Part shown: positions 6,068-34,477 of the stretch, piece by piece | How positions within the stretch are numbered: position 1 is the stretch's first letter | Layout: every line of letters begins with the position of its first letter | Assembly (NCBI GenBank): GCA_946481275.1 | Contig: CAMLMV010000058.1 | Span: 1 to 34,507, forward strand | Direction: 5' to 3' | DNA length: 34,507 bases | Source of the DNA: an uncultured Massilia sp. | Lineage (GTDB): Bacteria; Pseudomonadota; Gammaproteobacteria; Burkholderiales; Burkholderiaceae | Made by a program: the position numbers and the translations under genes | Notes under the pieces: generated by a model | Told to the model about the DNA's origin: nothing | Seen by the model: only the letters and a program-made list of their open reading frames with translations | The model's database searches: none

Positions 6068-6076
6068 GGTGGGTCC

Positions 6077-15304: not shown

Positions 15305-15379
15305 TATCCCGCCGTACCCCCGGTGCTACTCTTGCATCCAGTTAGTCATAATTTTCACAAGATCCATTCTGAGGCGATG

Positions 15380-16852
15380 ATGTCCACACCGATCCGATTT
15401 TTCTACCGCGGCGCCGTCCATGAAGTGAACGACGTCGCGCCGACGCAGACCATCCTGCAGCACCTGCGCGAGGACCTGCACTGCACCGGCACCAAGGAAG
15501 GCTGCGCCGAAGGCGACTGCGGTGCCTGCACCGTCGTCGTCGGATCGCTGGAAAACGGCGAACTGCAGATGCGGGCCGTGAATTCCTGCATCCAGTTCAC
15601 GCCCACGCTGGACGGCAAGGCGCTGTTCACCGTCGAAGACCTGGCGCAGGAGGATGGCAACCTGCACCCCGTACAGCAGGCACTCGTCGAATGCCACGGC
15701 TCGCAGTGCGGCTTCTGCACGCCGGGTTTTGCGATGTCGCTGTGGGGCATGTATCTGAAACAGGAAGGCCGCGAGCCGAGCCGCTGCGAGATCGACGACG
15801 CCCTGTCCGGCAATTTGTGCCGCTGCACGGGCTACCGTCCCATCATCGATGCGGCCAAGCGCATGGTGACGCTGCCGCGCGTCGATTTCGACCGCGCCGC
15901 CGTGACGGCACAACTGCAGGCGCTGCAGCGCGACGCGGGCGCCACGTACGAATACGACGGCCAGACCTTCCACGCACCGCGCACGCTGGACGAACTGGTC
16001 GCCGTGCGCGCCGCGCATCCGAAGGCGACGATCCTCGCCGGCTCGACCGACGTCGGCCTGTGGGTCACCAAGCAGATGCGCGAACTGACGGACGTCATCT
16101 ACCTGGGCCACGTGGCCGAACTGAAGACGGTGCGCGAGCAGGACGGTTTTATCGACATCGGCGCCGGCATCTCCCTCGAGGATGCGTACGCCGCCATCTG
16201 CAGGCATTACGAGGCGGAGCTGGGAGAATTGTGGCAGCGTTTCGCATCGCTCCCGATCCGCAACGCGGGCACCTTGGGCGGCAACGTGGCGAACGGTTCG
16301 CCGATCGGCGACTCGATGCCGTGGCTGATCGCCATCGGCAGCGAACTGGTGCTGCGCGGCCCGGACGGCGAGCGCACCATGCCGCTCGAGAATTTCTATC
16401 TCGGCTATCAGGTGAAAGACTGGCGCGAGGGCGAGTTCGTGCAGGCCGTGCGCGTGCCGCTGCCGCGCAAGAACGTCGTGTTCCGCACGTATAAACTGGC
16501 CAAGCGCTTCGACCAGGACATCTCGGCCGTCTGCGCCGCCTTTGCCTTCACGCTGGAAGACGGCATCGTCCGCGACGCGCGCATCGCGTATGGCGGCATG
16601 GCCGCGACGCCGAAGCGCGCCGCGCAGGCGGAAGCTGCCCTGAACGGCCGCGCGTGGGACGAAGCGGCCGTGCGCGACGCGATGGACGCGCTGGCAAAGG
16701 ACTACGCACCGCTGTCCGACATGCGCGCCTCGAGCGCCTACCGCATGAAGACGGCGCAGAACCTGTTGCGCCGCTACTGGCTCGAAACGCGCAAGGACAA
16801 CCCGCTGCCGCTTGCCGCGGTCAATGCATTCGCGCACACCGCCACGGCCTGA
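15380..16852 (+). CDS. xdhA: Xanthine dehydrogenase small subunit (2Fe-2S and FAD domains)
   Basis: This 490-residue cytoplasmic subunit passes electrons from the molybdenum subunit through two iron-sulfur clusters to FAD and NAD+. The ferredoxin-like cluster uses Cys42, Cys47, Cys50 ([10 protein letters not shown]) and Cys70. The second cluster uses Cys110/Cys113 (CGFC) and Cys147/Cys149 (LCRCTGYRP). The FAD domain (about 195-370) includes [15 protein letters not shown] and [20 protein letters not shown], and a CO-dehydrogenase flavoprotein C-terminal domain completes it. The second of two adjacent ATG codons (15380) fits the GAGG ribosome site best. It is the first gene of xdhABC-guaD, 10 bp before xdhB. 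With XdhB it oxidises hypoxanthine to xanthine and xanthine to urate. Confidence 0.97.
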
Positions 16853-16862
16853 GGAGAACACC

Positions 16863-19208
16863 ATGAACGACGCAGGATCCCCCGCTCTGACCAAGGCCGA
16901 ATGGAAACAGGTCGGCCTCGGCAAGACCCATGAATCGGCCCGGCTGCACGTGCTGGGCCAGGCCGACTACACCGACGACATCGCCGAAGTGCGCGGCACC
17001 TTGCACGCTGCGCTCGGCCTGTCGGGCAAGGCCCACGCCCGCATCCTCGACATCGACTTCACGGACGTCCTGGCCAGCCGCGGCGTGCGCGCCGTGCTGA
17101 CGGCGAAGGACATCCCGGGCACCAACGATTGCGGCCCGATCATCCACGACGACCCGATCCTCGCGGACGGCCTCGTGCAATACATCGGCCAGCCGATCTT
17201 CGTGGTCGTCGCCGACAGCCACGACCTGGCACGCCGCGCCGCGAAGAAAGCCAAAGTCAGCTACGAAGAACTGCCCGCGATCCTGACCCCGCAGGCGGCA
17301 CGCGCCGCCGGTTCGTACGTGCTGCCGCCGATGCGCCTGACGCGCGGCGATGCCGAAACCGCGTTCGAACGCGCCCCGCTGCGTGTGAAGGGCGAGCTGT
17401 ACGTGGGTGGCCAGGAGCAGTTTTATCTCGAAGGCCAGATTTCGTACGCGATTCCGCAGGAAAACGACGGCATGCTCGTGCTGTGCTCCACGCAGCACCC
17501 GAGCGAGATGCAGCACGTCGTGGCGCACGCCTTGGGCCTGCATTCGCATAACGTGGTGGTGGAGTGCCGCCGCATGGGCGGCGGCTTCGGCGGCAAGGAA
17601 TCGCAGTCGGCGCTGTGGGCCGCTTGCGCCTCCATCGCGGCGAAACGCCTCGGCCGCGCCGTGAAGCTGCGCGCGGACCGCGACGACGACATGATGGTGA
17701 CCGGCAAGCGCCACTGCTTCCACTACCTGTACGAAGTGGGCTACGACGACGCCGGCCGCATCCTCGCGGCGAAGGTCGACATGGTGAGCCGCGCGGGCTA
17801 CTCGGCGGACCTGTCCGGTCCTGTCGCCACCCGCGCCATCTGCCACTTCGACAACACGTATTACCTGTCCGACTGCGACATCCGCGCGGCGGCCGGCAAA
17901 ACGAACACCCAGTCGAATACGGCATTCCGCGGCTTCGGCGGTCCGCAGGGCGCGATCGCGATCGAGTACATCATCGACGAGATCGCGCGCAACCTCGGCA
18001 AGGATTCGCTCGACATCCGCAAGCTGAATTTCTACGACAAGATCGACCGCAACGTGACGCCGTACGGCCAGCCCGTCGTCGACAACGTGATCCACGAACT
18101 GGTGGGCGAGCTGGAACAGACGAGCGAATACCGCGCGCGCCGTGCGGCGATCCAGGCCTACAACGCGACGAGCCCCGTGCTGAAGAAGGGCCTCGCGCTG
18201 ACGCCCGTGAAATTCGGCATCGCGTTCAACGTGACGCACCTGAACCAGGCCGGCGCCCTCGTGCACGTGTACGTGGACGGCTCCATCCTCGTCAACCACG
18301 GCGGCACGGAAATGGGGCAGGGCGTCAACACGAAGGTGATGCAGGTGGTCGCGCACGAACTGGGCGTGGACCTGACCCGCGTGCGCATCGCCGCGACGAA
18401 TACGAGCAAGGTCGCCAACACGTCGGCGACGGCCGCATCGACGGGCGCGGACCTGAACGGCAAGGCCGCGCAGGATGCGGCGCGCCAGATCCGCGAACGG
18501 CTCGCCGCCTTCGCCGCGAAGCAGTACGGCGGTGCCGTGGAAGACGTGCGCTTCGTCGCGGACACGGTGTTCGCGAACGGCCACGAAGTCCCGTTCGGCG
18601 AACTGGTCGCCAAGGCTTACCTCTCGCGCGTGCAGCTGTGGTCCGACGGCTTCTATGCGACGCCGAACCTGCACTGGGATCCGAAGACGATGACGGGCAA
18701 CCCGTTCTTCTACTTCGCATACGGCGCGGCGGTGGCGGAAGTCGTCATCGACACGCTGACGGGCGAATGGAAGCTGCTGCGTGCGGACGCGCTGTACGAC
18801 GCCGGCAACTCGCTGAACCCCGCCATCGACATCGGCCAGGTGGAAGGCGCCTTCATCCAGGGCATGGGCTGGCTGACGACGGAAGAACTGTGGTGGAACG
18901 CGCAGGGCAAGCTGATGACGCATGCGCCGTCCACGTACAAGATCCCGGGCGTATCGGATTGCCCGGACGCGTTCACGGTGAAGCTCTTCAACAACCGCAA
19001 CGTGGCCGATTCGATCCACCGCTCTAAAGCCGTCGGCGAACCGCCGCTGCTGCTGCCGTTTTCCGTGTTCCTCGCGATCCGCGACGCCATCTCGGCCGTC
19101 GGCGACCACAAGGTGAACCCGCCGCTGCGTGCCCCGGCGACGAGCGAAGCGATCCTCGACGCCGTCTCCTTCGTCGAACAGGCCGTGCAGGAATCGAAGG
19201 CAGCCTGA
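16863..19208 (+). CDS. xdhB: Xanthine dehydrogenase molybdopterin-binding subunit
   Basis: This 781-residue catalytic subunit carries the molybdenum cofactor. Key motifs match characterised xanthine dehydrogenases. GGGFGGKE holds Glu246, the residue equivalent to bovine Glu802. TAFRGFGGPQ holds Arg356, equivalent to bovine Arg880, which positions the purine. GGTEMGQGVNTK is a cofactor-binding loop. AVGEPPLLLPF holds the catalytic base Glu726, equivalent to bovine Glu1261. The presence of the Glu/Arg pair supports true purine oxidation over aldehyde oxidase. The start at 16863 has AGGAG upstream and removes a 17-residue unlikely extension. It ends 1 bp before xdhC. Confidence 0.97.
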   Translation: MNDAGSPALTKAEWKQVGLGKTHESARLHVLGQADYTDDIAEVRGTLHAALGLSGKAHARILDIDFTDVLASRGVRAVLTAKDIPGTNDCGPIIHDDPILADGLVQYIGQPIFVVVADSHDLARRAAKKAKVSYEELPAILTPQAARAAGSYVLPPMRLTRGDAETAFERAPLRVKGELYVGGQEQFYLEGQISYAIPQENDGMLVLCSTQHPSEMQHVVAHALGLHSHNVVVECRRMGGGFGGKESQSALWAACASIAAKRLGRAVKLRADRDDDMMVTGKRHCFHYLYEVGYDDAGRILAAKVDMVSRAGYSADLSGPVATRAICHFDNTYYLSDCDIRAAAGKTNTQSNTAFRGFGGPQGAIAIEYIIDEIARNLGKDSLDIRKLNFYDKIDRNVTPYGQPVVDNVIHELVGELEQTSEYRARRAAIQAYNATSPVLKKGLALTPVKFGIAFNVTHLNQAGALVHVYVDGSILVNHGGTEMGQGVNTKVMQVVAHELGVDLTRVRIAATNTSKVANTSATAASTGADLNGKAAQDAARQIRERLAAFAAKQYGGAVEDVRFVADTVFANGHEVPFGELVAKAYLSRVQLWSDGFYATPNLHWDPKTMTGNPFFYFAYGAAVAEVVIDTLTGEWKLLRADALYDAGNSLNPAIDIGQVEGAFIQGMGWLTTEELWWNAQGKLMTHAPSTYKIPGVSDCPDAFTVKLFNNRNVADSIHRSKAVGEPPLLLPFSVFLAIRDAISAVGDHKVNPPLRAPATSEAILDAVSFVEQAVQESKAA

Positions 19209-19209
19209 C

Positions 19210-20217
19210 ATGGACGACTGGCTCATCCCCACCGCGCAACCGGCCGTCTTGATCACGGTCGCGAAGGTCGACGGTTCCGTACCCCGCGAACCGGGCGCGC
19301 GCATGCTCGTCGACGCCGGCGGGCAGTGGGGCACCGTCGGCGGCGGCCACCTGGAGCTGCGCGGCATCGAGACCGCGCGCGCCATGCTGCAAAACGGGGA
19401 GGCGCGCCGCATCGAACGCTTCCCGCTCGGGCCGAGCCTCGGGCAGTGCTGCGGCGGCGTCGTGCACCTCGCGTTCGAGCTGGTCGACCGCGACCAGTGC
19501 GCCGAGCTGGCCGCACGCCGCCACGAAGACTGCTGGCGCGTCGTCGCGCTGGATGGCGCACCCGACCTCGCGCTCGTCGATGCGCTGGGCCACAACATCC
19601 AGCGCACCGGCGGCCGCTACCCGGACTTCGAGCGCAGCGGCGGCACCCGCGTGCTGCTCGATGAGGCGGGACGGCGCTGGCTCGTCGACCACGTCCCGGC
19701 GCCGCGCGCGCACGTGATGCTGTTCGGCGCCGGCCACGTGGGCGCCGCCATCGTGCGCCTGCTGGCCGACCTGCCGTGCAAGGTGACGTGGGTCGACGAA
19801 CGGGAAGACATGTTCCCGGCCGCCGTCGCGCCCAACGTCGTCGTGGAAGCGACCGACCTGCCGGAAGCCCTCGTGCGCACGGCGCCTGCCGGGACGAGCT
19901 TCCTCGTCATGACGCACAATCATGCGCTGGACCAGCGCCTGACCGAAGCGATCCTCCGGCGACCCGCGCACCAGGACTGGTTCGGCCTGATCGGATCGGA
20001 AACCAAACGCAAGCAGTTCGAACACCGCCTGCGCGACCGCGGGATTTCCCGCGCCCGCCTGGACGACATGGTGTGCCCGATCGGCGTCCCCGGCATCAAG
20101 GGCAAGGAGCCCGCCGTGATCGCCGTCGCCGTCGTCGCGCAACTGCTGATGGTCTGGGAGGCGGCGGCCCACGCCGCACCCGCGACCGCAACCGAAGTCC
20201 CACTGGAACAAGACTGA
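19210..20217 (+). CDS. xdhC: XdhC, molybdenum-cofactor insertion/sulfuration chaperone
   Basis: This 335-residue accessory protein binds molybdenum cofactor, promotes its sulfuration and delivers it to XdhB; it is not part of the final enzyme. The N-terminal XdhC/CoxI domain has GSVPREPGARMLV, GTVGGGHLEL and LGPSLGQCCGG, the last with the conserved cysteine pair Cys80/Cys81. The C-terminal Rossmann-type domain begins MLFGAGHVGAAIVRLLADL (GAGHVG at about 173-178) and includes the FGLIGSETKRKQF and GVPGIKGKEPAVIAVAVVAQ blocks. Gaps of 1 bp to xdhB and 1 bp to guaD indicate a tightly coupled operon. A longer in-frame start reads as shadow of xdhB. Confidence 0.96.
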   Translation: MDDWLIPTAQPAVLITVAKVDGSVPREPGARMLVDAGGQWGTVGGGHLELRGIETARAMLQNGEARRIERFPLGPSLGQCCGGVVHLAFELVDRDQCAELAARRHEDCWRVVALDGAPDLALVDALGHNIQRTGGRYPDFERSGGTRVLLDEAGRRWLVDHVPAPRAHVMLFGAGHVGAAIVRLLADLPCKVTWVDEREDMFPAAVAPNVVVEATDLPEALVRTAPAGTSFLVMTHNHALDQRLTEAILRRPAHQDWFGLIGSETKRKQFEHRLRDRGISRARLDDMVCPIGVPGIKGKEPAVIAVAVVAQLLMVWEAAAHAAPATATEVPLEQD

Positions 20218-20218
20218 G

Positions 20219-21526
20219 ATGTCCAACGATACCCGTACCGTGCAGGCCTACCGAGCGAGCCTGCTGCACTTCCACGCCGATCCGGCCTTTGCCGAGAACG
20301 CCCACGCCTGGCACCAGGACGGGCTGCTCGTCGTCGAGAACGGCCGCGTGCTCGCCGCCGGCGACTACGACAAGCTGGTTCCCACGCTGCCCGACGGCAC
20401 CGACGTCGTCGACTACCGCGGCCAGATCATCACGCCCGGCTTCATCGACACGCACCTGCATTATCCGCAGACCGACATGATCGGCTCGCCCGCGCCGGAC
20501 CTGCTGCCGTGGCTGGAGAACTACACGTTCCCGACCGAGCGCCAGTTCCAGGATCCCGTGCACGCCCGCACCGTCGCCGAATTCTTCCTCGACGAGCTGC
20601 TGCGCAACGGCACGACGACGGCGCTCGTCTACTGCACGGTGCACAAGGAATCCGTCGACGCTTTCTTCGAGGCGAGCGCCGCGCGCAACCTGCGCATGGC
20701 CGGCGGCAAGGTGCTGATGGACCGGAACTGCCCGGACTTCCTGCGCGACACGGCGGACATGCGCGACAGCGAAGACCTGATCCGCCGCTGGCACAACAAC
20801 GGCCGCGCGCTGTACGCGCTCACGCCGCGCTTCGCGCCGACATCGACCCCGGCCCAGCTGGGTGCGGCGGGTGAGCTGGCGCGCGCGTTCCCGACCACGT
20901 ACATCCAGACGCACGTGTCGGAAAGCCGCGACGAATGCGCGTGGGTGAAAAGCCTGTACCCGGACAACCGCAGCTATCTGCAGGTGTACGAGCACTATGG
21001 CCTGATGCGTCCGCGTGCGATGTTCGGCCACTGCATCTGGCTGGACGACGTCGACTTCGCGCTGATGGCCGACACGGGCGCCGCGATCTCGCACTGCCCG
21101 ACGTCGAACCTGTTCCTCGGCAGCGGCCTGTTCGACGTCGCCAAGGCGGACGACGTGGGTGCGCACGTGTCGCTGGGGACCGACGTCGGCGCGGGCACGT
21201 CGTTCTCGATGTTGCAAACAATGAATGAAGCGTATAAAGTTGCGCGGTTAAAAGGCAGCTATCTCCCGGCCCTGCGCATGTTCTATCTCGCCACGCTGGG
21301 CGCCGCGCGCAGCATGCAGCTCGAAGGGACGATCGGCAATTTTGCCGCCGGCACCGAGGCGGACTTCATCGTCCTCGACCCGAAGGCGACGCCGTTGCTG
21401 GCGCGCCGCACGGCGAACGGCGACTCGCTCGAGGAAACCCTGTTCGCGCTGGCGCTGCTGGGCGACGACCGCGCGATCCGCGCCACGTATGCGGCGGGCA
21501 AGCGGGTGCACGAGCGGGCGCGCTGA
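20219..21526 (+). CDS. guaD: Guanine deaminase
   Basis: This 435-residue cytoplasmic amidohydrolase converts guanine to xanthine and ammonia, feeding xanthine dehydrogenase. Metal ligands of the family are visible: HxH in IDTHLHYPQTDMIG (His79, His81), QTHVSE (His232), GHCIWL (His271) and the catalytic Asp322 in GTDVGAG. The HLHYPQTDMIGS segment and NYTFPTE are specific to guanine deaminases among amidohydrolases. Its length matches bacterial members. The xdhC stop and the ATG are separated by one base (TGAGATG), which argues for translational coupling. Forty-six bases separate it from the secreted adenosine deaminase. Confidence 0.96.
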   Translation: MSNDTRTVQAYRASLLHFHADPAFAENAHAWHQDGLLVVENGRVLAAGDYDKLVPTLPDGTDVVDYRGQIITPGFIDTHLHYPQTDMIGSPAPDLLPWLENYTFPTERQFQDPVHARTVAEFFLDELLRNGTTTALVYCTVHKESVDAFFEASAARNLRMAGGKVLMDRNCPDFLRDTADMRDSEDLIRRWHNNGRALYALTPRFAPTSTPAQLGAAGELARAFPTTYIQTHVSESRDECAWVKSLYPDNRSYLQVYEHYGLMRPRAMFGHCIWLDDVDFALMADTGAAISHCPTSNLFLGSGLFDVAKADDVGAHVSLGTDVGAGTSFSMLQTMNEAYKVARLKGSYLPALRMFYLATLGAARSMQLEGTIGNFAAGTEADFIVLDPKATPLLARRTANGDSLEETLFALALLGDDRAIRATYAAGKRVHERAR

Positions 21527-21572
21527 TCCGGGTCCCGGCTGCCTGAACGAACCTTTCACAGCCGAGACGACA

Positions 21573-23063
21573 ATGACGAAAACCCTGAGCAGCAGCCTGC
21601 TGATCACCCTGGCGGCCCTCGCGGCCGCCGCTTCCGCGCGCACCCCGGCGTCCGGCCCCAACGAAGCCGCCACCGCGCGCCACTACGCGTCCCTGATCGC
21701 GGGCGCCCAGCCGAAGACGGCGGAGCTGGTCCTGTTCTTCTCGCAGATGCCCAAGGGCGGCGACCTGCACCATCACTACTCCGGCGCGATCTATGCCGAG
21801 ACCTATGTCGACTGGCTCGACAAGCAGGGCTATTGCGTCAACAAGCTGACTTACAAGATCGAGACCGACAGGAGCGTCGTCGAGCACGAACGGGCGAAGC
21901 AGCCGAAGGACCGCGCCTGCCTGTCGTCGTCCGACGTGTATGCCGACGACGCCACGTGGCGCGAGCTGCTGCAGCGCTGGTCGAGCAAGGATTTCAATAA
22001 CCACGGCGCCATCCAGCCGCCGCCGGACCGCCAGTTCTTCCAGACGTTCGGCTATTTCGGCCCCATCTCCGACCGCAACTTCCACGAAGGCCTCGTCGAG
22101 CTGAAGAACCGCGCGCTGGCCGAGAACGTGGCCTATATCGAGACGATGTTCAAGAGCCCGGACACGGTGTCCGATCCGGAATTCGACAAGCGCGCCTGGG
22201 ACAGTGCACGCGACGAGGCGAAGTTCGTCCAGCTGCTGGAGTCCGCGCGCCAGAAGCTGAATGCGACGCCGGCGTTCCGGACCTCCGTCGACAACTTCGT
22301 CCGCACCGTCAACGAGGCGGCCCTGGGCATCGACGACGACAACTTCACGATGCGCTACCAGACCTATGTCGTGCGGCTGTTCTCGCCGTCGCGCGTGTTC
22401 TCCTCGATGCTGGCCGCGTTCGAATCGGCGGCGCGGGGCGGCAAGATCGTCGGCGTGAACATCGTGGGCCAGGAAAGCCAGATGGTCTCCATGCGCGACT
22501 ACACCTTGCACATGCAGATGTTCCGCTACCTGAAGAAGGTCTACCCGAAGGTCAACGTCGCGATGCACGCGGGCGAGCTGGCGCTGGGCGACGTGCCGCC
22601 GGAAGACCTGAAGTACCACATCGACCAGGCGCTGAACGTGGCGGGCGCGCAGCGCATCGGCCACGGCATCGACCTCGCGCACGAGTCGAACGCGGTCGGC
22701 ATCATGAAGACGATGCGTACGAAGGACATCCCGGTCGAGATCAACCTGACGTCGAACGCGTTCATCGAAGGCGTGCAGGGCGAGAACCACCCGATCACGC
22801 TGTACCGCAAGTATGGCGTGCCGTACGTGATCTCGACGGACGACGCGGGCGTCACGCGCCACAACCTGGCCAATGAATACGTGCTGTTCGCCAGCCGCTA
22901 CAAGCCGAGCTACGCGGAAGTCAAGAAGGCGTCGTACAACAGCATCCGCTACAGCTTCCTGCCCGAGTCCGACAAGCAGCGCCTGACGCGCCTGCTCGAT
23001 GCACGCTTCGCGCGCTTCGAGTCGGATGTCGCCGCGCTCGAACGCACCGCCGTGAAGCGCTGA
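21573..23063 (+). CDS. Secreted (periplasmic) adenosine deaminase-family protein
   Basis: This 496-residue protein belongs to the adenosine/AMP deaminase superfamily but carries a signal peptide (MTKTLSSSLLITLAALAAAA, cleavage near ASA at 22). Active-site motifs are present: MPKGGDLHHHYSG (His66, His68), HAGE (His332, catalytic Glu335), RIGHGID (His364) and STDDAG (Asp423/424). It is longer than the ~330-residue cytoplasmic enzyme, with an extra N-terminal region and a long insertion (about residues 80-170), as in secreted ADGF-like deaminases. It probably converts periplasmic adenosine to inosine. The start at 21573 follows a modest ribosome site (GAG at 21565-21567); the upstream part of the frame lies inside guaD and is shadow. 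It is the last gene of the xdhABC-guaD group. Confidence 0.9.
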   Translation: MTKTLSSSLLITLAALAAAASARTPASGPNEAATARHYASLIAGAQPKTAELVLFFSQMPKGGDLHHHYSGAIYAETYVDWLDKQGYCVNKLTYKIETDRSVVEHERAKQPKDRACLSSSDVYADDATWRELLQRWSSKDFNNHGAIQPPPDRQFFQTFGYFGPISDRNFHEGLVELKNRALAENVAYIETMFKSPDTVSDPEFDKRAWDSARDEAKFVQLLESARQKLNATPAFRTSVDNFVRTVNEAALGIDDDNFTMRYQTYVVRLFSPSRVFSSMLAAFESAARGGKIVGVNIVGQESQMVSMRDYTLHMQMFRYLKKVYPKVNVAMHAGELALGDVPPEDLKYHIDQALNVAGAQRIGHGIDLAHESNAVGIMKTMRTKDIPVEINLTSNAFIEGVQGENHPITLYRKYGVPYVISTDDAGVTRHNLANEYVLFASRYKPSYAEVKKASYNSIRYSFLPESDKQRLTRLLDARFARFESDVAALERTAVKR

Positions 23064-23076
23064 GCATCTCCCTTCT

Positions 23077-23100
23077 GCCGGCGGCGGTCCCGCCGCCGGC
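23077..23100 (+). terminator. GC-rich hairpin after the adenosine deaminase gene
   Basis: GCCGGCGGCGG (23077-23087) and CCGCCGCCGGC (23090-23100) are perfect complements starting 13 bp after the stop codon. The stem is strong but the following bases are AACCTCCCTCC with no T tract, so it may stabilise or pause rather than terminate alone. Confidence 0.5.
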
Positions 23101-23142
23101 AACCTCCCTCCGCCCGGCGTCGCCACCCCACTTATGTCTCAC

Positions 23143-23160
23143 CGGCATATGCATATGCCG
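23143..23160. promoter_or_regulatory. Perfect 18-bp palindrome CGGCATATGCATATGCCG
   Basis: All 18 bases are self-complementary with no central spacer, and the site also contains the tandem unit GCATAT. It lies about 92 bp upstream of the TATAAT box and 480 bp upstream of the TonB-receptor start. The symmetry suggests a dimeric regulator site. No regulator gene is adjacent. Confidence 0.55.
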
Positions 23161-23229
23161 TCCCTGTGGCCAACTCGCTACAGAATGGATTAATTCTCAC
23201 GTCGTTTGCTTAAAAACCAAGCGAAACAA

Positions 23230-23257
23230 TTTCATTCGAGAACGCCCCATTTATAAT
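23230..23257 (+). promoter_or_regulatory. Candidate sigma-70 promoter of the TonB receptor gene
   Basis: A consensus -10 box TATAAT at 23252-23257 is preceded, 16 bp upstream, by TTTCAT (23230-23235), a weak match to the -35 consensus. The region is AT-rich in a GC-rich genome. Transcription would start about 375 bp before the receptor ATG. Confidence 0.5.
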
Positions 23258-23640
23258 CCCGCCGTGTCTGTTTCTGAGGGAAAAGGCAACCCGCACGCGA
23301 CCCTCTGCTCACTTCTTAGGCAACTTATACGCGCAAGCTATAAATTCCCAAGTGAAAACGTATTTGTCTCGATAAACGGCTTCATGCATATTGGCCTTTT
23401 ATTAAGCCAACGTCCGAGAACATGAGCGGTTTTCGGGTGTAATAGCCTGGAAACAATTGACCGCTAGACTCGCGTGCGCTGCTTTTTGCTGGTGCATCGT
23501 CAACCACGTCCGCACCATCAAACAGCAGGCAGGAAGAACAAAGACCGGCCGTCATGAGCGACCGGTCCAGGATTGCAGTACTCAAGAGGGGGGAACTCGG
23601 TTCCCAACCATAACTATCAAGTCTATTTGGGGTTAATCCA

Positions 23641-27054: not shown

Positions 27055-27080
27055 TTCGTACCGGTGTGACGTAAAGGAGG

Positions 27081-27108
27081 CGGCCGGTGGCGACACCGGC
27101 CGTTTTTT
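27081..27108 (+). terminator. Rho-independent terminator of the TonB receptor gene
   Basis: CGGCCGGTG (27081-27089), a 4-base GCGA loop and CACCGGCCG (27094-27102) form a perfect 9-bp stem followed by six T bases. It lies 26 bp after the stop codon. Confidence 0.95.
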
Positions 27109-27126
27109 CTACCCTTGTAAAGACCA

Positions 27127-27168
27127 GAACAGCGAACGTGCGTGCCATAATCGATGGCTGCTGTTCGC
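27127..27168 (+). promoter_or_regulatory. Overlapping alternative inverted repeats in the 5'-nucleotidase leader
   Basis: GAACAGC (27127-27133) can pair with GCTGTTC (27160-27166), and GCGAAC (27132-27137) with GTTCGC (27163-27168). The arms overlap, so the two pairings exclude each other. They lie 18-59 bp before the 5'-nucleotidase ATG. They could be an operator or alternative RNA folds; neither is proven. Confidence 0.3.
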
Positions 27169-27185
27169 ATGACACAAGACTTCAT

Positions 27186-28844
27186 ATGATCGTATCCCGT
27201 CCGTTCGCGCTGGCCCTGGGCGCCGCGTTGCTGCTGTCCGGCTGCGCCTCCGCGCCGGTCCGTCCGCTCGAGATCAACCTCGTCGCGCTGAACGACTTCC
27301 ACGGCAACCTGGAACCCAGCAAGTACACGTACACGCCACCGGGCACGACGCAGCCGCGCACGACCCAGGCGGGCGGCATCGACGTGCTGAAAGGCGCACT
27401 GGACACGTTCCGCAAGGACGACCCGGACCTGCTGTTCGTCGCGGCCGGCGACCTCGTCGGCGCGAGCCCCGCCGCGTCGTCGATGTTCGCGGACGAGCCG
27501 AGCATCGAAGCGCTGAACCGCATGGGCCTCGTCGCCAGCTCGCTGGGCAACCATGAATTCGACCAGGGCCCGAAGGAGTTGCTGCGCCAGCAGCACGGCG
27601 GCTGCGATTCGCCGCGTCCCGCGAAAGCATGCCGCCTCTCGCCCGATTTCAAGGGCGCCGGTTTTACGTATCTCGCCTCCAACGTCGTCGACGCCCAGAC
27701 GGGCAAGAACCTCGTGCCGGGCTGGCGCATCGTCGACGTCAAGGGCGTCAAGGTGGGCCTGATCGGCGCCGTGCTGCACGACCTCGCGTCCGTGACCATC
27801 GCCTCGTCCATCAAGGGGCTCGCCATCAACGACGAAGCGGCCTCGATCAACGCCGTGCTGCCCGCGATGCGCGCGCAGGGGGCGCAGGTGTTCGTCGTGC
27901 TGATCCACGAAGGCGGCTTCGCCGACCAGCCGTACGATAAGGCCGATTGCGACACCTTGCACGGCCCCATCGTCGCGATCACGAAGAAACTCGACCCGGC
28001 CATCCGCCTCGTCATCAGCGGCCATTCGCACACGGGCTACCTGTGCAAGGTGGACGGCAAGGTCGTCACGCAGGCGGACGCCTACGGCCACCTGCTGTCG
28101 CGCATCAAGCTGACGCTCGACCCGGCCACGAAGGCCGTCCAGGATATCCAGGTGCGCAACGTGGTGATGGCGCCGGATGCGTTCACGCCCGACGCGAGCC
28201 TGTCCGCGTACCTGGCCGACGTGCGTGCGAAGAGCCGCGCGGAGCTGGCCAAGCCGGTGGCGCGCGTGCAGGGCCCCTTGTCGCGCAAGGAGAATGCGTC
28301 CGGCGAATCGGTGCTGGGCGGCGTGATCGCCGACGCGGCCGTCGCCGCCACGCGCGACCAGGGCGCGCAGATCGGCTTCATGAACCCGGGCGGCATCCGC
28401 AAGGACCTGGAGACGGGGGAGGGCGGCGTCGTGAGCTTCGGCCAGGCGCAGGCCGTGCTCCCGTTCGGGAACACGCTCGTCGTGATGGACCTCACCGGCG
28501 CGCAGCTGCGCCGCGTGCTCGAACAGCAGTGGGACCGGCCGGCGGCATCAAGCCCGTCGATCCTGGCCGTGTCCAGCAGCCTCACGTACGACTGGGACGC
28601 CACGCAGCCGGTCGGCCGCCGCACGGCGAACGTGAAGGTGGACGGCAAGGCGCTCGACGACGACAAGGTCTATCGCGTCGTGGCCAACAACTTCCTGGCC
28701 GAAGGCGGCGACAACATCCCGATGTTCGCCAAGGGCACGCGCCGCGTCGAGACGGGCCTGCGCGACCTCGACGCGCTGATCGCTTACCTGCAAACGCATC
28801 CGGAAGCCGGCGGCACGCCCCCGCGCATCCGCAAGGTCCGCTAA
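27186..28844 (+). CDS. 5'-nucleotidase / bifunctional metallophosphatase lipoprotein
   Basis: This 552-residue protein removes phosphate from nucleotides outside the cytoplasm, giving nucleosides. The N-terminus has a lipobox (LLLSGC, lipidated Cys20), so it is anchored to the membrane facing the periplasm. The metallophosphatase domain shows NDFHGN (Asp37, His39), GDLVGASP (Asp89), LGNHEFD (Asn122, His123), an IHEGG block (His241) and SGHSHTG (His280, His282). The C-terminal 5_nucleotid_C substrate domain shows NPGGIRKDL, VLPFGNTLVVMDLTGAQL and NNFLAEGGDN. Overall it is like UshA-type enzymes. The ribosome site is weak. It is preceded by the receptor terminator, so it has its own promoter, and is followed 31 bp later by the nuclease. 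Confidence 0.95.
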   Translation: MIVSRPFALALGAALLLSGCASAPVRPLEINLVALNDFHGNLEPSKYTYTPPGTTQPRTTQAGGIDVLKGALDTFRKDDPDLLFVAAGDLVGASPAASSMFADEPSIEALNRMGLVASSLGNHEFDQGPKELLRQQHGGCDSPRPAKACRLSPDFKGAGFTYLASNVVDAQTGKNLVPGWRIVDVKGVKVGLIGAVLHDLASVTIASSIKGLAINDEAASINAVLPAMRAQGAQVFVVLIHEGGFADQPYDKADCDTLHGPIVAITKKLDPAIRLVISGHSHTGYLCKVDGKVVTQADAYGHLLSRIKLTLDPATKAVQDIQVRNVVMAPDAFTPDASLSAYLADVRAKSRAELAKPVARVQGPLSRKENASGESVLGGVIADAAVAATRDQGAQIGFMNPGGIRKDLETGEGGVVSFGQAQAVLPFGNTLVVMDLTGAQLRRVLEQQWDRPAASSPSILAVSSSLTYDWDATQPVGRRTANVKVDGKALDDDKVYRVVANNFLAEGGDNIPMFAKGTRRVETGLRDLDALIAYLQTHPEAGGTPPRIRKVR

Positions 28845-28875
28845 CGATATAAACCGTATTCACGGAGAGATCCTC

Positions 28876-29928
28876 ATGAAGAAAATCGCATGTGTCGTGG
28901 CGCTGGCCGGCGCCTTCGTGTCGCTGGACGCGGCCGCATGGGGCACGGACGGCCATCGCGCCGTGGGCGCCATCGCCGACAAGCTGATCAAGGGCACCCG
29001 TGCCGAGGCGCAGGTGAAGGCACTGCTGCTGCCGGGCGAATCGCTGGAAGCCGTGTCGACCTGGCCCGATTGCGTGAAGGGCAACTGGTGCGGTCCGCAG
29101 ACGCCGGAAATGATCGAGTACGTGAACGCGAATCCGAAGCACAGCGAATACCATTACACGGACGTGCCGTTCCAGCTCGACCACTACCACGACGGCGCCG
29201 CCGGCACGGCCGACGACGACATCGTGCAGACGCTGAAGGAAGCCATCGCCGTCCTGCAGGGCAAGGACACGCCCGCGACCAATCCGCACAAGTTCACGAA
29301 GCGCCAGGCGCTGATCCTCATCACCCACCTGGCCGGCGACATCGTCCAGCCGCTGCACGTGGGCGCCGCCTTCGTCGACAAGAACGGCAAGTTCATCGTG
29401 CCGAAGACGAAGGCCGAGATCGACGAGACCGTCGTCTTCGATTCGCGCGGCGGCAACAACTTCCTGATGGACGACGCGAAGATCGAGCAGATGTCCGCGA
29501 ATCTCATTCCGCCGGGCGAACCGAAGCCGGTGAAGCCGGGCGTGCCGAAGGCGCTGACGAAGCCGTTCCACTCGTACTGGGACAGCACGACGGTCGACTA
29601 CGCGTTCCGCCGCATCCGCACGAAGACGCCCGAGCAGTTCGCCCAGGCCGCCATCGACGGCAAGCCGAACGTGGCACAGAACAGCGGCGACCCCGTCACC
29701 TGGCCGTACCAGTGGGCGGACGATACGCTGGCGGTCTCGAAGATCGCATTCGCCGGCGTCAAGGCGGGCAAGATCGTGCCGCAGGTGAGCAAGAAGGGCG
29801 AAACCTATTACACGTGGACCCTGGAAGTGCCGAATGACTATCCGGTGCCCAGCTCCGCGCTCGCAAAGACACAGATGATCAAGGGCGGCTACAACCTGGC
29901 CGCGCTGCTGAAGGCGATCTGGCCGTAA
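28876..29928 (+). CDS. Secreted S1/P1-type zinc nuclease
   Basis: This 350-residue exported nuclease has a signal peptide ending AAA before Trp22, so the mature protein would begin with the Trp whose N-terminus binds zinc in P1 nuclease. The other zinc ligands line up with P1 spacing: His27 (WGTDGH), Asp65 (TWPD), His93 (EYHYTD), His151 and Asp155 (THLAGD), His161 (PLHVG), His232 and Asp236 (FHSYWD). Family members cut single-stranded DNA and RNA and often remove 3' phosphates, yielding 5'-nucleotides, which are the substrate of the neighbouring 5'-nucleotidase. The stretch between His161 and His232 is 71 residues, clearly longer than in fungal P1, with a Pro/Lys-rich part (PPGEPKPVKPGVPK). 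It shares a transcript with the 5'-nucleotidase, and a strong terminator follows. Confidence 0.95.
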   Translation: MKKIACVVALAGAFVSLDAAAWGTDGHRAVGAIADKLIKGTRAEAQVKALLLPGESLEAVSTWPDCVKGNWCGPQTPEMIEYVNANPKHSEYHYTDVPFQLDHYHDGAAGTADDDIVQTLKEAIAVLQGKDTPATNPHKFTKRQALILITHLAGDIVQPLHVGAAFVDKNGKFIVPKTKAEIDETVVFDSRGGNNFLMDDAKIEQMSANLIPPGEPKPVKPGVPKALTKPFHSYWDSTTVDYAFRRIRTKTPEQFAQAAIDGKPNVAQNSGDPVTWPYQWADDTLAVSKIAFAGVKAGKIVPQVSKKGETYYTWTLEVPNDYPVPSSALAKTQMIKGGYNLAALLKAIWP

Positions 29929-29951
29929 TCCCGGCGCCAACCTTCCGCAAG

Positions 29952-29987
29952 CCGCCGCGCGCCCACAAGGCCGCGGCGGTTTTTTTT
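29952..29987 (+). terminator. Rho-independent terminator after the S1/P1 nuclease gene
   Basis: CCGCCGCG (29952-29959) pairs with CGCGGCGG (29972-29979), with an inner GCC/GGC extension across the loop, followed by eight T bases. It lies 23 bp after the nuclease stop codon. Confidence 0.93.
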
Positions 29988-30026
29988 CGTGGGTTAGAAT
30001 TCCGGCTTCTCATTCGGACCCTCATC

Positions 30027-30863
30027 ATGCCCACGATTCTTCGTTTCATCGTCCCCGCCTCCGCGTTGCTGGCGCTCGTGCCCGCCGTCGCCGCCGAACC
30101 GGACTCACGCAACCTGCCGTTGTGGGAAGCCGGCATCGGCGCCGCCGTGTTCAACACGCCCGCCTACCCGGGCGCATCCGACCGCAGCAACCGCAACCTC
30201 GTGCTGCCGTTCCTGCTGTATCGCGGCAAGGTGCTGCGCGCCGACCAGCAGGGCATCGGCGCGCGCCTGCTGGACACGGACAAGGTCGAATTCGACGTCG
30301 GCCTTTCGGGCGCGCTGCCGTCCAGGTCGGACGACGTGGAAGCGCGCCGCGGCATGCCCGACCTCGGCACGCTCGTCGAATTCGGCCCGCGCGTGAAGTA
30401 CAAATTCGCCGACCTGGGCGACATGGGACGCCTGCGCTTCGAACTGCCCGTGCGCGCCGTCATCGAAGCCCGCGGCGGCCTGCGCCGCCAGGGCTGGACG
30501 ACGGAACCGCGTTTCGTGTGGGAGCACCGCGGCGATGCGGGCCGCTGGACGATGGAGGCGCAGGTGGGCGCCGTGTTCGGCGACCGGCGCATCCACGGTT
30601 ATTTCTATGACGTCGCGCCGCAGTATGCGACGGCGGACCGGCCGGCCTACCGGGCGGACAGCGGATTGATGCTCGTGCGGACTGGCTTCGGCGGCACGCT
30701 GCGGGTCAATCCGGACGTGCGCGTGTTCGCGTTCGTGCGCCTGGACAGTTATGCGGGGAATGCGAACCGGGACAGTCCGCTGTTCAGGAAGGATACCGGC
30801 GCGTCGGCCGGGGTGGGCTTTGCGTGGACGTTGGCGCGCTCGAGCAAGCGCGCCAACGACTGA
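30027..30863 (+). CDS. MipA/OmpV-family outer-membrane protein
   Basis: This 278-residue protein has a signal peptide (cleavage near AVAA, about residue 23) and the sequence pattern of the MipA/OmpV family. It shows GAAVFNTPAYPGASDRSNRN, LPFLLYRGKVLRADQQGIGA, then regular amphipathic strands to GASAGVGFAWTLAR. Family members are small outer-membrane barrels; some interact with peptidoglycan-synthesis enzymes, and others are linked to antibiotic or osmotic responses. No direct role in nucleic-acid use is known, so its place may be incidental. It follows the nuclease terminator, so it needs its own promoter, and its stop codon is 1 bp from the stop of the convergent ABC permease. Confidence 0.9.
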   Translation: MPTILRFIVPASALLALVPAVAAEPDSRNLPLWEAGIGAAVFNTPAYPGASDRSNRNLVLPFLLYRGKVLRADQQGIGARLLDTDKVEFDVGLSGALPSRSDDVEARRGMPDLGTLVEFGPRVKYKFADLGDMGRLRFELPVRAVIEARGGLRRQGWTTEPRFVWEHRGDAGRWTMEAQVGAVFGDRRIHGYFYDVAPQYATADRPAYRADSGLMLVRTGFGGTLRVNPDVRVFAFVRLDSYAGNANRDSPLFRKDTGASAGVGFAWTLARSSKRAND

Positions 30864-30864
30864 A

Positions 30865-31830
30865 TCAGCGCGATTTCACGAACGGCTTGCCGATGGCTTT
30901 CGGGGCCACCGACTTGGCCATCAAACCGGCCAGCACGACGACGGTGACGATGTAAGGAATCGCCTGGATCAGGGACCCCGGCAGGCGGCCGACGACCGGG
31001 AGGTCGACGCCTTCGAGCTGGATCTGGATCGCGCCGAACAGGCCGAACATCAAACAGCCCAGCACCGTGTGCAGCGGGCGCCAGTTGCCGAAGACGAGCG
31101 CCGTCAGCGCCAGGTAGCCGGCGCCGGCCGACATGTCGCGCAGGAAGAAGCCGCTCTGGACCAGCGTCAGGTAAGCACCGGAGAACGAGCACAGGACGCC
31201 GGCCACGAACATGGCGAGATAGCGCGTGCGCTCGACCGAGACGCCGGCCGCGTCGGCCGCATGCGGGTTCTCGCCGCACGCGCGCAGGCGCAGGCCGAAG
31301 CGGCTGTGGTACACGACCCAGTGCACGACGGGCAGCAGCAGGAACGCGACGTAGACCAGTACCGACTGGCCGCCGATCAGGTGGCCGTACAGCCAGCCGA
31401 TGACGGGGATGTGCTCGACGGCGGCCGTGCCGGGCAGGACGACGTCGAACAGGCGCGCATTGCGCAGGTCCGGCGTGCGGCCGCCCTGCTGGAAGAAGAA
31501 TTGCGCGAGCACGAACGTCAGGCCGCTCATGGCGATGTTGATGGCGATGCCGGCCACGAGCTGGTTGCCCTTCTGCGTGATCGACACGAACGCCTGCACC
31601 ATCGCGAGGGCGACCGACACGCCCATGCCGGCGAGGATGCCGTACCACGGGTTCTGCGTGGCGTAGGCGACGGCGGCCGACGCGAATGCCGACGCGAGGA
31701 TCTTGCCTTCGAGGCCGATGTCGACGACGCCCGAGCGCTCCGCGAACAGGCCGGCCAGCGCGGCGAACATCAGCACCGGCGCGTTGCGGATCGTGGAGAC
31801 GATGATGCTGGCGAGTTGAAAGTCTTCCAT
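30865..31830 (-). CDS. Nucleoside-type ABC transporter permease (NupQ/YufQ-like)
   Basis: This 321-residue inner-membrane permease belongs to the BPD_transp_2 (branched-chain/sugar/nucleoside) group, with about eight to ten hydrophobic segments. MFAALAGLFAERSGVVDIGL, continuing EGKILASAF, is the characteristic start of the second permease in BMP-type nucleoside importers. A further conserved block is LRACGENPHAADAAGVSVER, which includes the cytoplasmic coupling segment. Its ATG directly follows the stop codon of the other permease (TGAATG) with GGGG upstream, so the two are co-translated and probably form a heterodimer. The substrate is inferred from family and neighbours. Confidence 0.92.
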   Translation of the reverse strand: MEDFQLASIIVSTIRNAPVLMFAALAGLFAERSGVVDIGLEGKILASAFASAAVAYATQNPWYGILAGMGVSVALAMVQAFVSITQKGNQLVAGIAINIAMSGLTFVLAQFFFQQGGRTPDLRNARLFDVVLPGTAAVEHIPVIGWLYGHLIGGQSVLVYVAFLLLPVVHWVVYHSRFGLRLRACGENPHAADAAGVSVERTRYLAMFVAGVLCSFSGAYLTLVQSGFFLRDMSAGAGYLALTALVFGNWRPLHTVLGCLMFGLFGAIQIQLEGVDLPVVGRLPGSLIQAIPYIVTVVVLAGLMAKSVAPKAIGKPFVKSR

Positions 31831-32925
31831 TCAAATCCCCTTGTTGGTACGAGTGACGTTGAGCAGTTTCAGGATGGCCGGGGCGTAGAAGTTTTCCATC
31901 GCGCCGCAGAACAGGATGATCAGGCCCTGGATGAAGATGAACGTCTCCTGCGGGATATTCGGTTTTTCCAGCGACAGGTCGAAGCCGCCCTGGATCAGCG
32001 CGCCGAACAGCACGGACGACAGGAAGATGCCGACCGGATGCTGGCGGCCCATCAGCGCGATGGCGATGCCCACGAAGCCCGCGCCGGCGGGGAAATTCAG
32101 CGACAGGTAGTGCGTCGACCCCATCACGGAATTGACGGCGCCGAGGCCCGCGAGCGCGCCCGATACGAGCATCGTGACGATGATCGTGCGGCTGATTTTC
32201 ACGCCCGCGTAGTGCGCGGCGTGCGCGTTGAGCCCCGTCGCGCGCAGCTGGTAGCCCCACGACGAGCGCCACACGACGACGCCGTAGATCACGAGGGCGA
32301 GGATGGCAAGGATAAAACTGATGTTCAGCGGCGTGTCGCCCAGCACCGGCAGGAGCTTGCTCAGCAGGGGCAGGGCGGCGCTGTCGGCGAACACGCGCGA
32401 GGCCGGGTTCTGCTGGCCTTCCGGGATCAGGTATTTGACGATCACGAAGTTCATCAGGCTCGCGGCGATGAAGTTGAACATGATCGTCGTGACGACGACG
32501 TGGCTGCCCCGTTTCGCCTGCAGGTAGCCCGGAATGAAGGCCCACAGCGCGCCGAAGACGGCCGCGCCGATCATCGCGAGCGGGATCATCAGGATGCCGG
32601 GCAGGTGGGCGTCGAGCGCCAGCACGACCCAGGTCAGGCCCAGGCCGCCCACGTACATCTGGCCTTCCGCGCCGATGTTGAAGAGGCCCGCCTGCATCGC
32701 GATCGACACGGCGAGGCCCGCGAAGATGAAGGTGCTCGCGTAGAACAGCGTGTACGCGAGGCCTTCCGGATCGAGGATGGCGCTGTCGACGAGGATGCGG
32801 AGCGATTCCGACGGGCTCTCGCCCAGCAGGTGGATCACGAGCGCCGCGACGAGCAGCGCCGACATCAGGTTCAGGATCGGCAGGACGAAACCGGTGGCCC
32901 AGCGTGGCAATTCAGTCTTTGTCAT
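31831..32925 (-). CDS. Nucleoside-type ABC transporter permease (NupP/YufP-like)
   Basis: This 364-residue inner-membrane permease has about ten hydrophobic segments. Signature blocks are ASTFIFAGLAVSIAMQAGLF, continuing NIGAEGQMYVGGL, then VVTTIMFNFIAASLMNF and LRATGLNAHAAHYAGVKISR. It is the first permease of a BMP-type importer. Family members import purine nucleosides, with some importing riboflavin-like or other compounds. It starts only 4 bp after the ATPase stop codon and its end touches the second permease, so ATPase, permease 1 and permease 2 form one transcript. Together with the purine-salvage genes on the other strand this supports a nucleoside substrate. Confidence 0.93.
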   Translation of the reverse strand: MTKTELPRWATGFVLPILNLMSALLVAALVIHLLGESPSESLRILVDSAILDPEGLAYTLFYASTFIFAGLAVSIAMQAGLFNIGAEGQMYVGGLGLTWVVLALDAHLPGILMIPLAMIGAAVFGALWAFIPGYLQAKRGSHVVVTTIMFNFIAASLMNFVIVKYLIPEGQQNPASRVFADSAALPLLSKLLPVLGDTPLNISFILAILALVIYGVVVWRSSWGYQLRATGLNAHAAHYAGVKISRTIIVTMLVSGALAGLGAVNSVMGSTHYLSLNFPAGAGFVGIAIALMGRQHPVGIFLSSVLFGALIQGGFDLSLEKPNIPQETFIFIQGLIILFCGAMENFYAPAILKLLNVTRTNKGI

Positions 32926-32929
32926 GATG

Positions 32930-34477
32930 TCAGTGCTTGTGCATCCCGCCCATCAGCAGGCCGATGCGGGTGGTGTCGAATTCGTCGATGGGGAGGATGC
33001 CGGTGATGCGGCCGCCGGACATCACGATGATGCGGTCCGCGAGCGCGCGCACCTCTTCCAGTTCCACCGACGACAGCAGGATCGCCACGCCTTCGTCGCG
33101 CAGGCGCAGGAGCTGCGTGTGGATGCTTTCGATGGTGCCGATGTCCACGCCGCGCGTGGGCTGGCCGACCAGCATCAGCTTCGGCTTCGCGGCCACTTCG
33201 CGCGCGATGACGACCTTCTGCTGGTTGCCGCCGGACAGGAGACCGATGCGCAGGTCCGGATTGTTCGGACGCACGTCGAACGCCGTCATCAGGTGCGCGC
33301 AGCGCTGCGCGATCTTTTTATAGTCGAACAGGCCCCAGCGGTTCTTCACCTTGTCCTGGTAGCCGAACACCGTGTTCTGCATGACGGAGAAGTCCTTGAT
33401 CACGCCGTCGCGCAGGCGGTCTTCCGGCACGTGGCCGATGCCCAGTTCGCGGAACGCTGCCGGCAGGCCGTCCGCGTTCGTGCGGCCCGTGTACGGCAGG
33501 TCCTGGCCGAGGAATTCGACTTTACCGCTCGTCGGCAGGCGCATGCCGGACAGGATCTCCAGCAGCTCGCTCTGGCCATTGCCCGACACGCCCGCGATGG
33601 CGACCACTTCGCCCGCGCGCAACGTAAAATCGATGTCGGACAGGAGGGCGACGCCGTTCGCGTCCCGCAGCTGCAGGTCCGACACCTTCAGGACCTCGGT
33701 GCCCGGGTTGTACGGCGCGCGCGGCAGTTCGCTCTGGATCGGGCGGCCGACCATCATGTTGGCCAGCTGTTCCTTCGACGTCTCCGCGGTCTTGACGGCG
33801 CCGACGACGCGGCCCGCGCGCATGACCGTCACCTCGTCCGTGATCTCCATGATCTCCTGGAGTTTATGGGTGATGAGGATGATGGTCTTGCCCTGTTCCT
33901 TGAACAGCCGCAGGATCTCGAACAGCGACGCCGTCTCCTGCGCGGTCAGCACGGCGGTGGGCTCGTCGAGGATCAGGATGTTGGCGCTGCGGTAGATCTG
34001 CTTGAGGATCTCCACGCGCTGCTGCGCGCCGACGGACAGGTCGTGGATCGTCGCGAGCGGATCGACGTCGAGGCGGTAGCGGTCGCAGATCTCGCGCAGC
34101 TTCGCTTCCACGGCGCCGCGCTTGGCGGCCAGCCTGAAGCCGCCCTCGTTGCCCAGCATGACGTTGTCGAGGACGGTCATGTTCTCGACGAGCATGAAGT
34201 GCTGGTGCACCATGCCGATGCCGAGGGCGATTGCGTCAATGCTCGTGCGGATGTCCTGGGGCTGGCCGTCGATGAGGACCTGGCCGCTGTCGGCGTTGTA
34301 GTAGCCGTACAGGATGCTCATCAGGGTCGACTTGCCGGCGCCGTTTTCGCCGATTACGCCATGGATCGAGCCCTTGGCGATCGCGAAGCTGACGTCGGCA
34401 TTCGCCTGCACCGCCCCGAAGGCTTTGCTTATGTTGCGAAATTCTACGGCTGGCTGCATAGCGGTCTGTCCATTCAT
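32930..34477 (-). CDS. Nucleoside-type ABC transporter ATPase with two nucleotide-binding domains (NupO/YufO-like)
   Basis: This 515-residue ATPase fuses two ABC domains. Domain 1 has Walker A GENGAGKST (residues 43-51), Q-loop MVHQHFML, signature LSVGAQQRVEIL and Walker B ILILDEPTAVL. Domain 2 has a degenerate Walker A (GVSGNGQSE, with no Lys), signature LSGGNQQKVVIAREV and LMLVGQPTRGVD in place of a normal Walker B. Such asymmetry is normal in RbsA/NupO-type ATPases, where one site hydrolyses ATP. Two in-frame ATGs are possible (34477 and 34459); the first lacks a ribosome site. The periplasmic binding lipoprotein gene expected upstream lies outside the window to the right. Confidence 0.95.
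   Translation of the reverse strand: MNGQTAMQPAVEFRNISKAFGAVQANADVSFAIAKGSIHGVIGENGAGKSTLMSILYGYYNADSGQVLIDGQPQDIRTSIDAIALGIGMVHQHFMLVENMTVLDNVMLGNEGGFRLAAKRGAVEAKLREICDRYRLDVDPLATIHDLSVGAQQRVEILKQIYRSANILILDEPTAVLTAQETASLFEILRLFKEQGKTIILITHKLQEIMEITDEVTVMRAGRVVGAVKTAETSKEQLANMMVGRPIQSELPRAPYNPGTEVLKVSDLQLRDANGVALLSDIDFTLRAGEVVAIAGVSGNGQSELLEILSGMRLPTSGKVEFLGQDLPYTGRTNADGLPAAFRELGIGHVPEDRLRDGVIKDFSVMQNTVFGYQDKVKNRWGLFDYKKIAQRCAHLMTAFDVRPNNPDLRIGLLSGGNQQKVVIAREVAAKPKLMLVGQPTRGVDIGTIESIHTQLLRLRDEGVAILLSSVELEEVRALADRIIVMSGGRITGILPIDEFDTTRIGLLMGGMHKH

Follow-up and report, generated by a model that had tools for sequence, protein, structure and literature searches.

In Xanthomonas, carbohydrate utilisation loci containing TonB-dependent receptors (CUT loci) bring together a receptor, degradative enzymes, an inner-membrane transporter and a regulator, and the main text describing them allows for multipartite arrangements (PMC1790865). 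Their original definition has a carbohydrate substrate, and the word 'nucleoside' occurs zero times in that main text (PMC1790865). A comparable locus lies at 15.4-34.5 kb of the window (the whole stretch of DNA analysed, 34,507 nucleotides (nt) from an uncultured Massilia sp., to which coordinates refer), where proteins were assigned by Pfam and NCBIfam scans of the open reading frames (ORFs). Like CUT loci, it places a TonB-dependent receptor (Oar-type in the window; a second type of 750-850 amino acids (aa), receptor b, in relatives) beside a degradative set, namely an S1/P1 nuclease, a 5'-nucleotidase (5NT) and an adenosine-deaminase-family protein (ADA), with a PLD-family nuclease in relatives, and it includes an inner-membrane ABC importer (30865-34477), whose BMP protein is seen in relatives. 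A candidate LysR-type regulator gene is found in relatives between the importer and the purine phosphorylase (PNP) operon, whereas no regulator gene lies between xdhA and the window end. Unlike in CUT loci, the substrate suggested by gene content is nucleic acid, one promoter element joins three operons and the receptor slot swaps between two types. On this comparison, the locus is best read as a nucleic-acid counterpart of a TonB-receptor CUT locus and not as a SusC/SusD polysaccharide utilisation locus (PUL).

The initial annotation had likened the grouping to PULs, which stands as regards co-conservation, rearranged loci with the same parts and a shared promoter element, but not in the SusC/SusD sense, as no SusD domain was found among the scanned window ORFs; the CUT-locus concept fits. 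Bacteroidetes PULs likewise pair a TonB transporter of the outer membrane with exported hydrolases, in loci specific to a substrate, whereas the importer here is a BMP-type ABC system; Bacteroides thetaiotaomicron reportedly has a PUL-type ribose/nucleoside system. Escherichia coli Tsx is a passive outer-membrane nucleoside channel, which shares the outer-membrane nucleoside step with the receptor but differs in being passive and not TonB-dependent. Purine catabolism clusters resemble the locus in having xdhABC and guaD, with puuE- and uraH-type genes upstream in relatives, but here these genes adjoin an exported-type deaminase and a nucleic-acid module. Vibrio cholerae and Pseudomonas aeruginosa also use nucleic acid, as extracellular DNA, as a nutrient, yet the available parts of the two accounts describe no dedicated TonB-receptor locus (PMC3212620; PMC6555301), and both P. 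aeruginosa strains tested were extracellular DNase negative (PMC6555301). No locus of TonB receptor, nuclease, nucleotidase and xanthine dehydrogenase (XDH) was found in the open-licence literature by title or start of abstract, which is weak evidence of novelty.

We put at about 77% the probability that in the Massilia group this is a conserved locus for using nucleic acids and nucleosides, with its substrates, step order, protein locations, operon limits and regulator-operator contact as predicted parts of that reading. The exported S1/P1 nuclease, together with a PLD-family nuclease in many relatives, would cut DNA or RNA to nucleotides, from which the 5NT lipoprotein would strip the phosphate, and the exported ADA would convert adenosine to inosine. 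The dedicated TonB receptor, Oar-type here, may carry an oligonucleotide, nucleotide or nucleoside across the outer membrane, and therefore some of the degradation steps may be periplasmic. The BMP-type importer would bring nucleosides into the cytoplasm, the PNP/deoB/deoC/aldehyde dehydrogenase/deoA/cdd operon would recover (deoxy)ribose and bases, XDH and guanine deaminase (GuaD) would oxidise the purine ring, and PuuE- and UraH-type genes near xdhA would carry on ureide breakdown. The 'purine' label initially given to the locus is too narrow, because the shared element also precedes the operon of deoxyribose and pyrimidine-nucleoside genes (deoB, deoC, deoA, cdd); a purine-only reading was rejected on this ground. 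What can be read directly from the genomes is the genes, their linkage, the shared element, the co-occurring LysR-type gene and the exchange of the receptor.

The grouping of the locus genes is not due to chance. Among 145 genomes, all from one family and by their kinship giving non-independent counts, with the nearest genome (G001) used as centre, 38 have a strong S1/P1 match (E < 1e-90). The 5NT gene lies within 1.4 kb of it on the same contig in 37 of the 38, the exception (G114) being a contig end, and in 16 of those 37 the gap measures at least 300 bp and often holds a PLD nuclease gene. ADA is found within 9 kb in 33/38; its misses are contig ends (G114, G099), other contigs (G020, G028) and one absence (G061). 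With at most five candidates scored per genome, an Oar ortholog (E <= 1e-100) occurs as one match each in at least 28 of the 145 genomes, at the locus in 28/28. The initial annotation had proposed synteny across relatives as a check, and the co-conservation of 5NT, ADA and Oar bears it out. Over 33 relative loci, those containing guaD keep their gene order though identity falls to 59% (ADA), 54% (5NT) and 56% (S1/P1), while the adjoining upstream genes, to which the upstream comparison was limited (HflK and beyond fall outside the compared stretches), vary (Clp-like in 12, porin in 8). A wide spread in the taxonomic order was rejected, since the S1/P1 profile reached 1e-40 in only 4/250 genomes (G001, G019 and the partial matches G240 and G320).

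Named genomes, several of them also in the family sample, were scanned with receptor b, and the best 80 of 295 loci were compared. The 5NT gene directly follows receptor b in 65 of these 80, the other 15 including Pandoraea, Roseateles and Mitsuaria records, and the full order guaD-ADA-receptor-5NT-S1/P1 is present in 36, with a PLD-family nuclease gene in 23/36; genera showing it include Massilia, Duganella, Rugamonas, Janthinobacterium and Pseudoduganella. Five Undibacterium loci have, on one strand, BMP-ATPase-permease 1-permease 2-receptor b-5NT-S1/P1-ADA (read from the locus listing), and one locus from a metagenome-assembled genome (MAG), cut by a contig end, matches this order from the permeases onward. 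A NupC-type nucleoside transporter adjoins receptor b-5NT-S1/P1 in two Oxalobacteraceae MAGs (TIGR00804, 444 of 442 bits).

Upstream of the receptor and BMP genes lies a gap-free 45-bp block, TTATA-N9-TATAAAT-N9-AAAaCGTATTTGTCA, followed 17-18 bp past its end by CATAGT-like bases. The window copy, TTATA-N9-TATAAAT-N9-AAAACGTATTTGTCT, ends in a -35-like TTGTCT (23364-23369), with CATATT 17 bp on (23387-23392), as judged by eye. The element was found in 28/28 receptor upstream regions, ahead of both receptor types, in 18/23 BMP upstream regions (400 nt) and in 36/36 complete receptor-b loci, some of whose genomes are shared with the training set. A weight matrix scored the training sites at 38-81; the Markov background is GC-rich like the loci and flatters an AT-rich element, and shuffling the upstream regions (3850 shuffles) raised the chance maximum to 15.4. 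Outside the training set, the matrix found a third target, the region upstream of the PNP-deo operon, at scores of 54-69. In a genome-wide search allowing up to three mismatches, 80/91 sites in 29 locus genomes fall at these three promoters; the receptor has a site in 25 genomes, BMP in 27 (assigned by strand and distance) and PNP in 28 (by a PNP match in 21, by distance alone in 7), and all three are present in 23. This count leaves out G020, G133, G028, G061 and G033 of the 34 genomes searched, and locus genomes G099, G092, G109, G139 and G114, outside that search, have sites in the 145-genome scan. With up to two mismatches, 39/145 family genomes carry the element, 35 of which are 34 locus genomes and G020; the sequences of the remaining four (G007, G042, G069, G094) look like chance. 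A reversed-pattern control gave no match in the 34 genomes (up to three mismatches) and none in the 145. Because one promoter element is common to all three, the receptor, importer and PNP-deo operons are read as one regulon with a predicted regulator-operator contact. In the window strain, the receptor's copy is what is seen; the BMP, LysR and PNP-deo parts are taken from relatives.

Further copies of the element were noted. A fourth site occurs in three genomes of two genera (L258:3838-3882, L259:3260-3304 and L260:3232-3276). It lies downstream of genes for an exported nuclease and for a small protein of exported type, and the L258 and L259 copies are also upstream of a response-regulator-like gene. 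The L258 nuclease matches the ExeM/NucH model NF033681 (574 bits), the other two were assigned by position and eye, and similar sites are present in G124, G006, G093 and G137. Element-like sites at L261:5802, L266:5212 and L267:3530 stand beside another TonB-receptor-like gene of ~760-790 aa and point away from it.

In relatives, the operon behind the third site reads PNP-deoB-deoC-aldehyde dehydrogenase-deoA-cdd and lies 17-33 kb away from the locus; in G049, all its products pass NCBIfam cut-offs except the aldehyde dehydrogenase, which passes none. A kinase gene beside it reaches 124 of 540 bits on a pseudouridine-kinase model, which makes that role at most putative. At L264:2-2168, an HTH-sugar kinase gene is divergent from the PNP-deo operon, and the gene after it resembles a pseudouridine-phosphate glycosidase by eye, with no NCBIfam match at 1e-30. 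A LysR-type gene, 66-69% identical to the G020 query, is present in 30/34 genomes, exactly those 30 that have the element, and in 28/29 locus genomes it shares a contig with the locus and lies downstream of it, the remaining genome having it on a separate contig. G020 carries it in divergent orientation to an importer-PNP-deoB-deoC operon (named by eye); the element sits between the two, and its dyad fits the T-N11-A form of LysR sites. The regulon is most likely run by this predicted regulator, encoded between the importer and PNP operons. G020 also has, at L262:4805-6952 and under an element copy, two BMP-like genes in a row before an importer and an adenosine-deaminase-like gene (by eye).

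The receptor slot is exchangeable between relatives. Massilia sp. PDC64 (L206) aligns with the window at 92.9-94.1% DNA identity over 14695-23099 and again from 27229 up to the end of the window (blastn), apart from a short insert after guaD. Between these stretches, receptor b takes the place of Oar in its slot, accompanied by a separate, diverged copy of the element. Upstream of the element, a second block (window 23145-23227, GCATATGCATATGCC to AAGCGAAAC) is similar in PDC64, unlike the rest of the exchanged region. On a tree of ADA, 5NT and S1/P1 from 34 genomes (27 with Oar, 7 with receptor b), receptor type changes at least six times by parsimony, which gives the number and not the direction of changes on what is a single FastTree with some weak nodes (0.45-0.73); both types occur within four genera. 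Diverged alleles of one type are also seen, as in G124 and G110, whose ADA, 5NT and S1/P1 are 93-97% identical and whose receptors b are only 61% identical. In G134, Oar occupies the locus while a receptor b gene is present on a different contig (G134:C9 and G134:C11), which makes this genome a possible intermediate of exchange. Replacement of receptor and promoter region together would fit selection acting on the receptor as an exposed protein or on the range of substrates. Tentatively, and at somewhat less than even odds, the locus may serve the TonB-dependent uptake of nucleotides, nucleosides or oligonucleotides through an Oar-type or FecA-like receptor, and the receptor gene and its own operator may form a cassette that is replaced time and again between strains, both by diverged alleles and by the other type, as would be expected if phages or bacteriocins target the receptor or if the types take different products.

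The xdhABC-guaD genes form a separate and wider-spread unit without the shared element. In 15/15 genomes chosen for having guaD without a strong ADA or S1/P1 match, xdhA and xdhB adjoin guaD, and therefore two units meet at the locus, this purine-ring unit and the nucleic-acid module. PuuE-type genes are found upstream near xdhA in 24/33 relative loci and UraH-type genes in 19/33. An element ahead of xdhA was rejected, as no 8-mer is common to at least six genomes in each of three upstream classes and matrix scores stay at shuffle level; L147 has a site scoring 17.1 near the expected xdhA start. The xdh operon thus lacks the element, and the nucleic-acid and nucleoside regulon stands beside a purine-ring operon. 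ADA is possibly the last gene of the xdh operon, because it starts 46 nt 3' of guaD. It belongs to the deaminase family by a PF00962 score over the cut-off and by its catalytic motifs HxH, HAGE, GHG and DD, invariant in 17 aligned relatives (H66, H68, H332-E335, H364, D423 and D424 in G001 protein numbering), whereas it stays below the equivalog cut-off of the adenosine deaminase model TIGR01430 (84 of 217 bits) and misses that of the growth factor subfamily model TIGR01431 (67.5 of 315 bits). Across the class, the ADA profile is found in 17/321 genomes including G001, the other 16 showing none of the further query genes in the ~1.5 kb flanks examined.

The S1/P1 protein belongs to its family by a PF02265 domain over the cut-off, although the alignment spans profile positions 1-130 of 258 only, and by H27, D65, H93, H151, D155, H161, H232 and D236, conserved across 16 rows including the window. 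W22 is kept in 15/16 rows, and predicted signal cleavage before it would expose an N-terminal Trp; presumably these residues, W22 included, are the ligands of the family's three-zinc site. Metallophos and 5_nucleotid_C domains place 5NT with UshA/CD73-type 5'-nucleotidases, its closest PDB relatives are nucleotidases, and it attains no NCBIfam model cut-off. All genes named by the initial annotation at 15.4-34.5 kb were recovered, xdhABC and guaD all exceeding their NCBIfam cut-offs, apart from the BMP binding protein; a MipA-family gene (PF06629) is an additional member. The BMP-type nucleoside importer named there was upheld for two permeases and the ATPase, but the BMP protein lies beyond the window end, following the ATPase in relatives (PF02608 in one), and the families do not say 'nucleoside': the top NCBIfam models of ATPase and permeases are 'putative B6 transporter', all below cut-off (407 of 670, 164 of 465 and 136 of 400 bits), so that the families alone give no substrate.

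Several findings weigh against reading the locus as one for nucleic-acid and nucleoside use. For the ATPase and permeases, a nucleoside substrate is suggested by genomic context alone, and the receptor families give no substrate either: no PDB relative of the Oar-type receptor was found at E 0.001, and receptor b matches siderophore-receptor models below cut-off, with PDB relatives of the PirA, FecA and FepA types. Eleven of the 91 element matches lie elsewhere, and seven PNP sites, as said, were placed by distance. The element is absent (up to three mismatches) from G133, G028, G061 and G033, and the regulon is therefore lineage-specific. In 26 xdhA upstream regions, the best matrix scores of 14.2 and 10.8 equal those of shuffled sequence, and co-regulation of XDH, GuaD and ADA is therefore unsupported. 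The kinship of the sampled genomes also bears on the idea that the genes stay together through descent, without joint function. That idea is barely plausible, as order is kept at the low identities given above while adjoining upstream genes vary, the same parts recur in different orders, and the element is common to promoters of unrelated genes.

That the receptor merely shares the regulon and imports another ligand, such as a metal chelate or vitamin, is a narrower proposal, compatible with the rest of the reading. The siderophore-receptor resemblance of receptor b and the B6-transporter resemblance of the importer, both below cut-off, speak for it, but 5NT follows receptor b directly in most of the best loci and the Oar ortholog is found at this locus only, and we hold it to be unlikely. 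Exported nucleases and 5'-nucleotidases serve phosphate nutrition in many bacteria, and here they could release phosphate from nucleic acids with the other genes as historical neighbours; since the element links the nuclease/nucleotidase operon to the importer and the PNP-deo operon, this is quite improbable. An exported 5NT and ADA might instead clear extracellular ATP and adenosine signals, given that CECR1 and mollusc AMP-deaminase-type enzymes, which have signalling roles, are among the solved structures related to ADA (PDB). Their link with importer, PNP-deo and XDH genes speaks for consumption, however, and makes such quenching very improbable.

Features of the locus in the window, with strand and supporting evidence
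Feature	Position	Strand	Evidence
xdhA, xanthine dehydrogenase small subunit	15377..16852	+	TIGR02963 697 bits, cut-off 467; start ATG 15377 or 15380
xdhB, molybdopterin-binding subunit	16863..19208	+	TIGR02965 1282 bits, cut-off 850
xdhC, maturation factor	19210..20217	+	TIGR02964 307 bits, cut-off 162
guaD, guanine deaminase	20219..21526	+	TIGR02967 587 bits, cut-off 375
Adenosine-deaminase-family protein (ADA)	21573..23063	+	PF00962 84 bits; start and signal-like N-terminus by eye
Shared 45-bp control element	23325..23369	+	weight-matrix score 61.1; promoter reading by eye
Oar-type TonB-dependent receptor, 1137 aa, exchangeable slot	23641..27054	+	PF13620, PF25183
Block without long DNA match to Massilia sp. 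PDC64	23099..27229	.	blastn and local alignments
5'-nucleotidase (5NT) lipoprotein	27186..28844	+	PF02872 138 bits, PF00149; lipobox LLSGC by eye
S1/P1 nuclease, long form	28876..29928	+	PF02265 88 bits, cut-off 29.5
MipA-family protein	30027..30863	+	PF06629 152 bits
ABC permease 2 of BMP-type importer	30865..31830	-	PF02653 (BPD_transp_2)
ABC permease 1 of BMP-type importer	31831..32925	-	PF02653 (BPD_transp_2)
Double ABC ATPase of importer	32930..34477	-	PF00005, two stretches

Upstream of the locus, the window holds the type IV pilus genes pilC and pilB (4829-7903) and, directly before xdhA, a ClpP-like gene (14654-15208) that is matched in 12/33 compared relative regions. Rfam gave zero matches at gathering scores anywhere in the window.

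Nucleic acids are an abundant source of carbon, nitrogen and phosphorus, and to our knowledge little is known of how their products pass the outer membrane beyond passive channels such as Tsx. The main interest of the locus lies in its regulon and its exchangeable receptor. Its context offers a substrate hypothesis for an Oar-type receptor, and a dedicated receptor, a promoter element, a candidate LysR-type regulator and near-identical backgrounds that naturally carry one or the other receptor version make the outer-membrane question testable.

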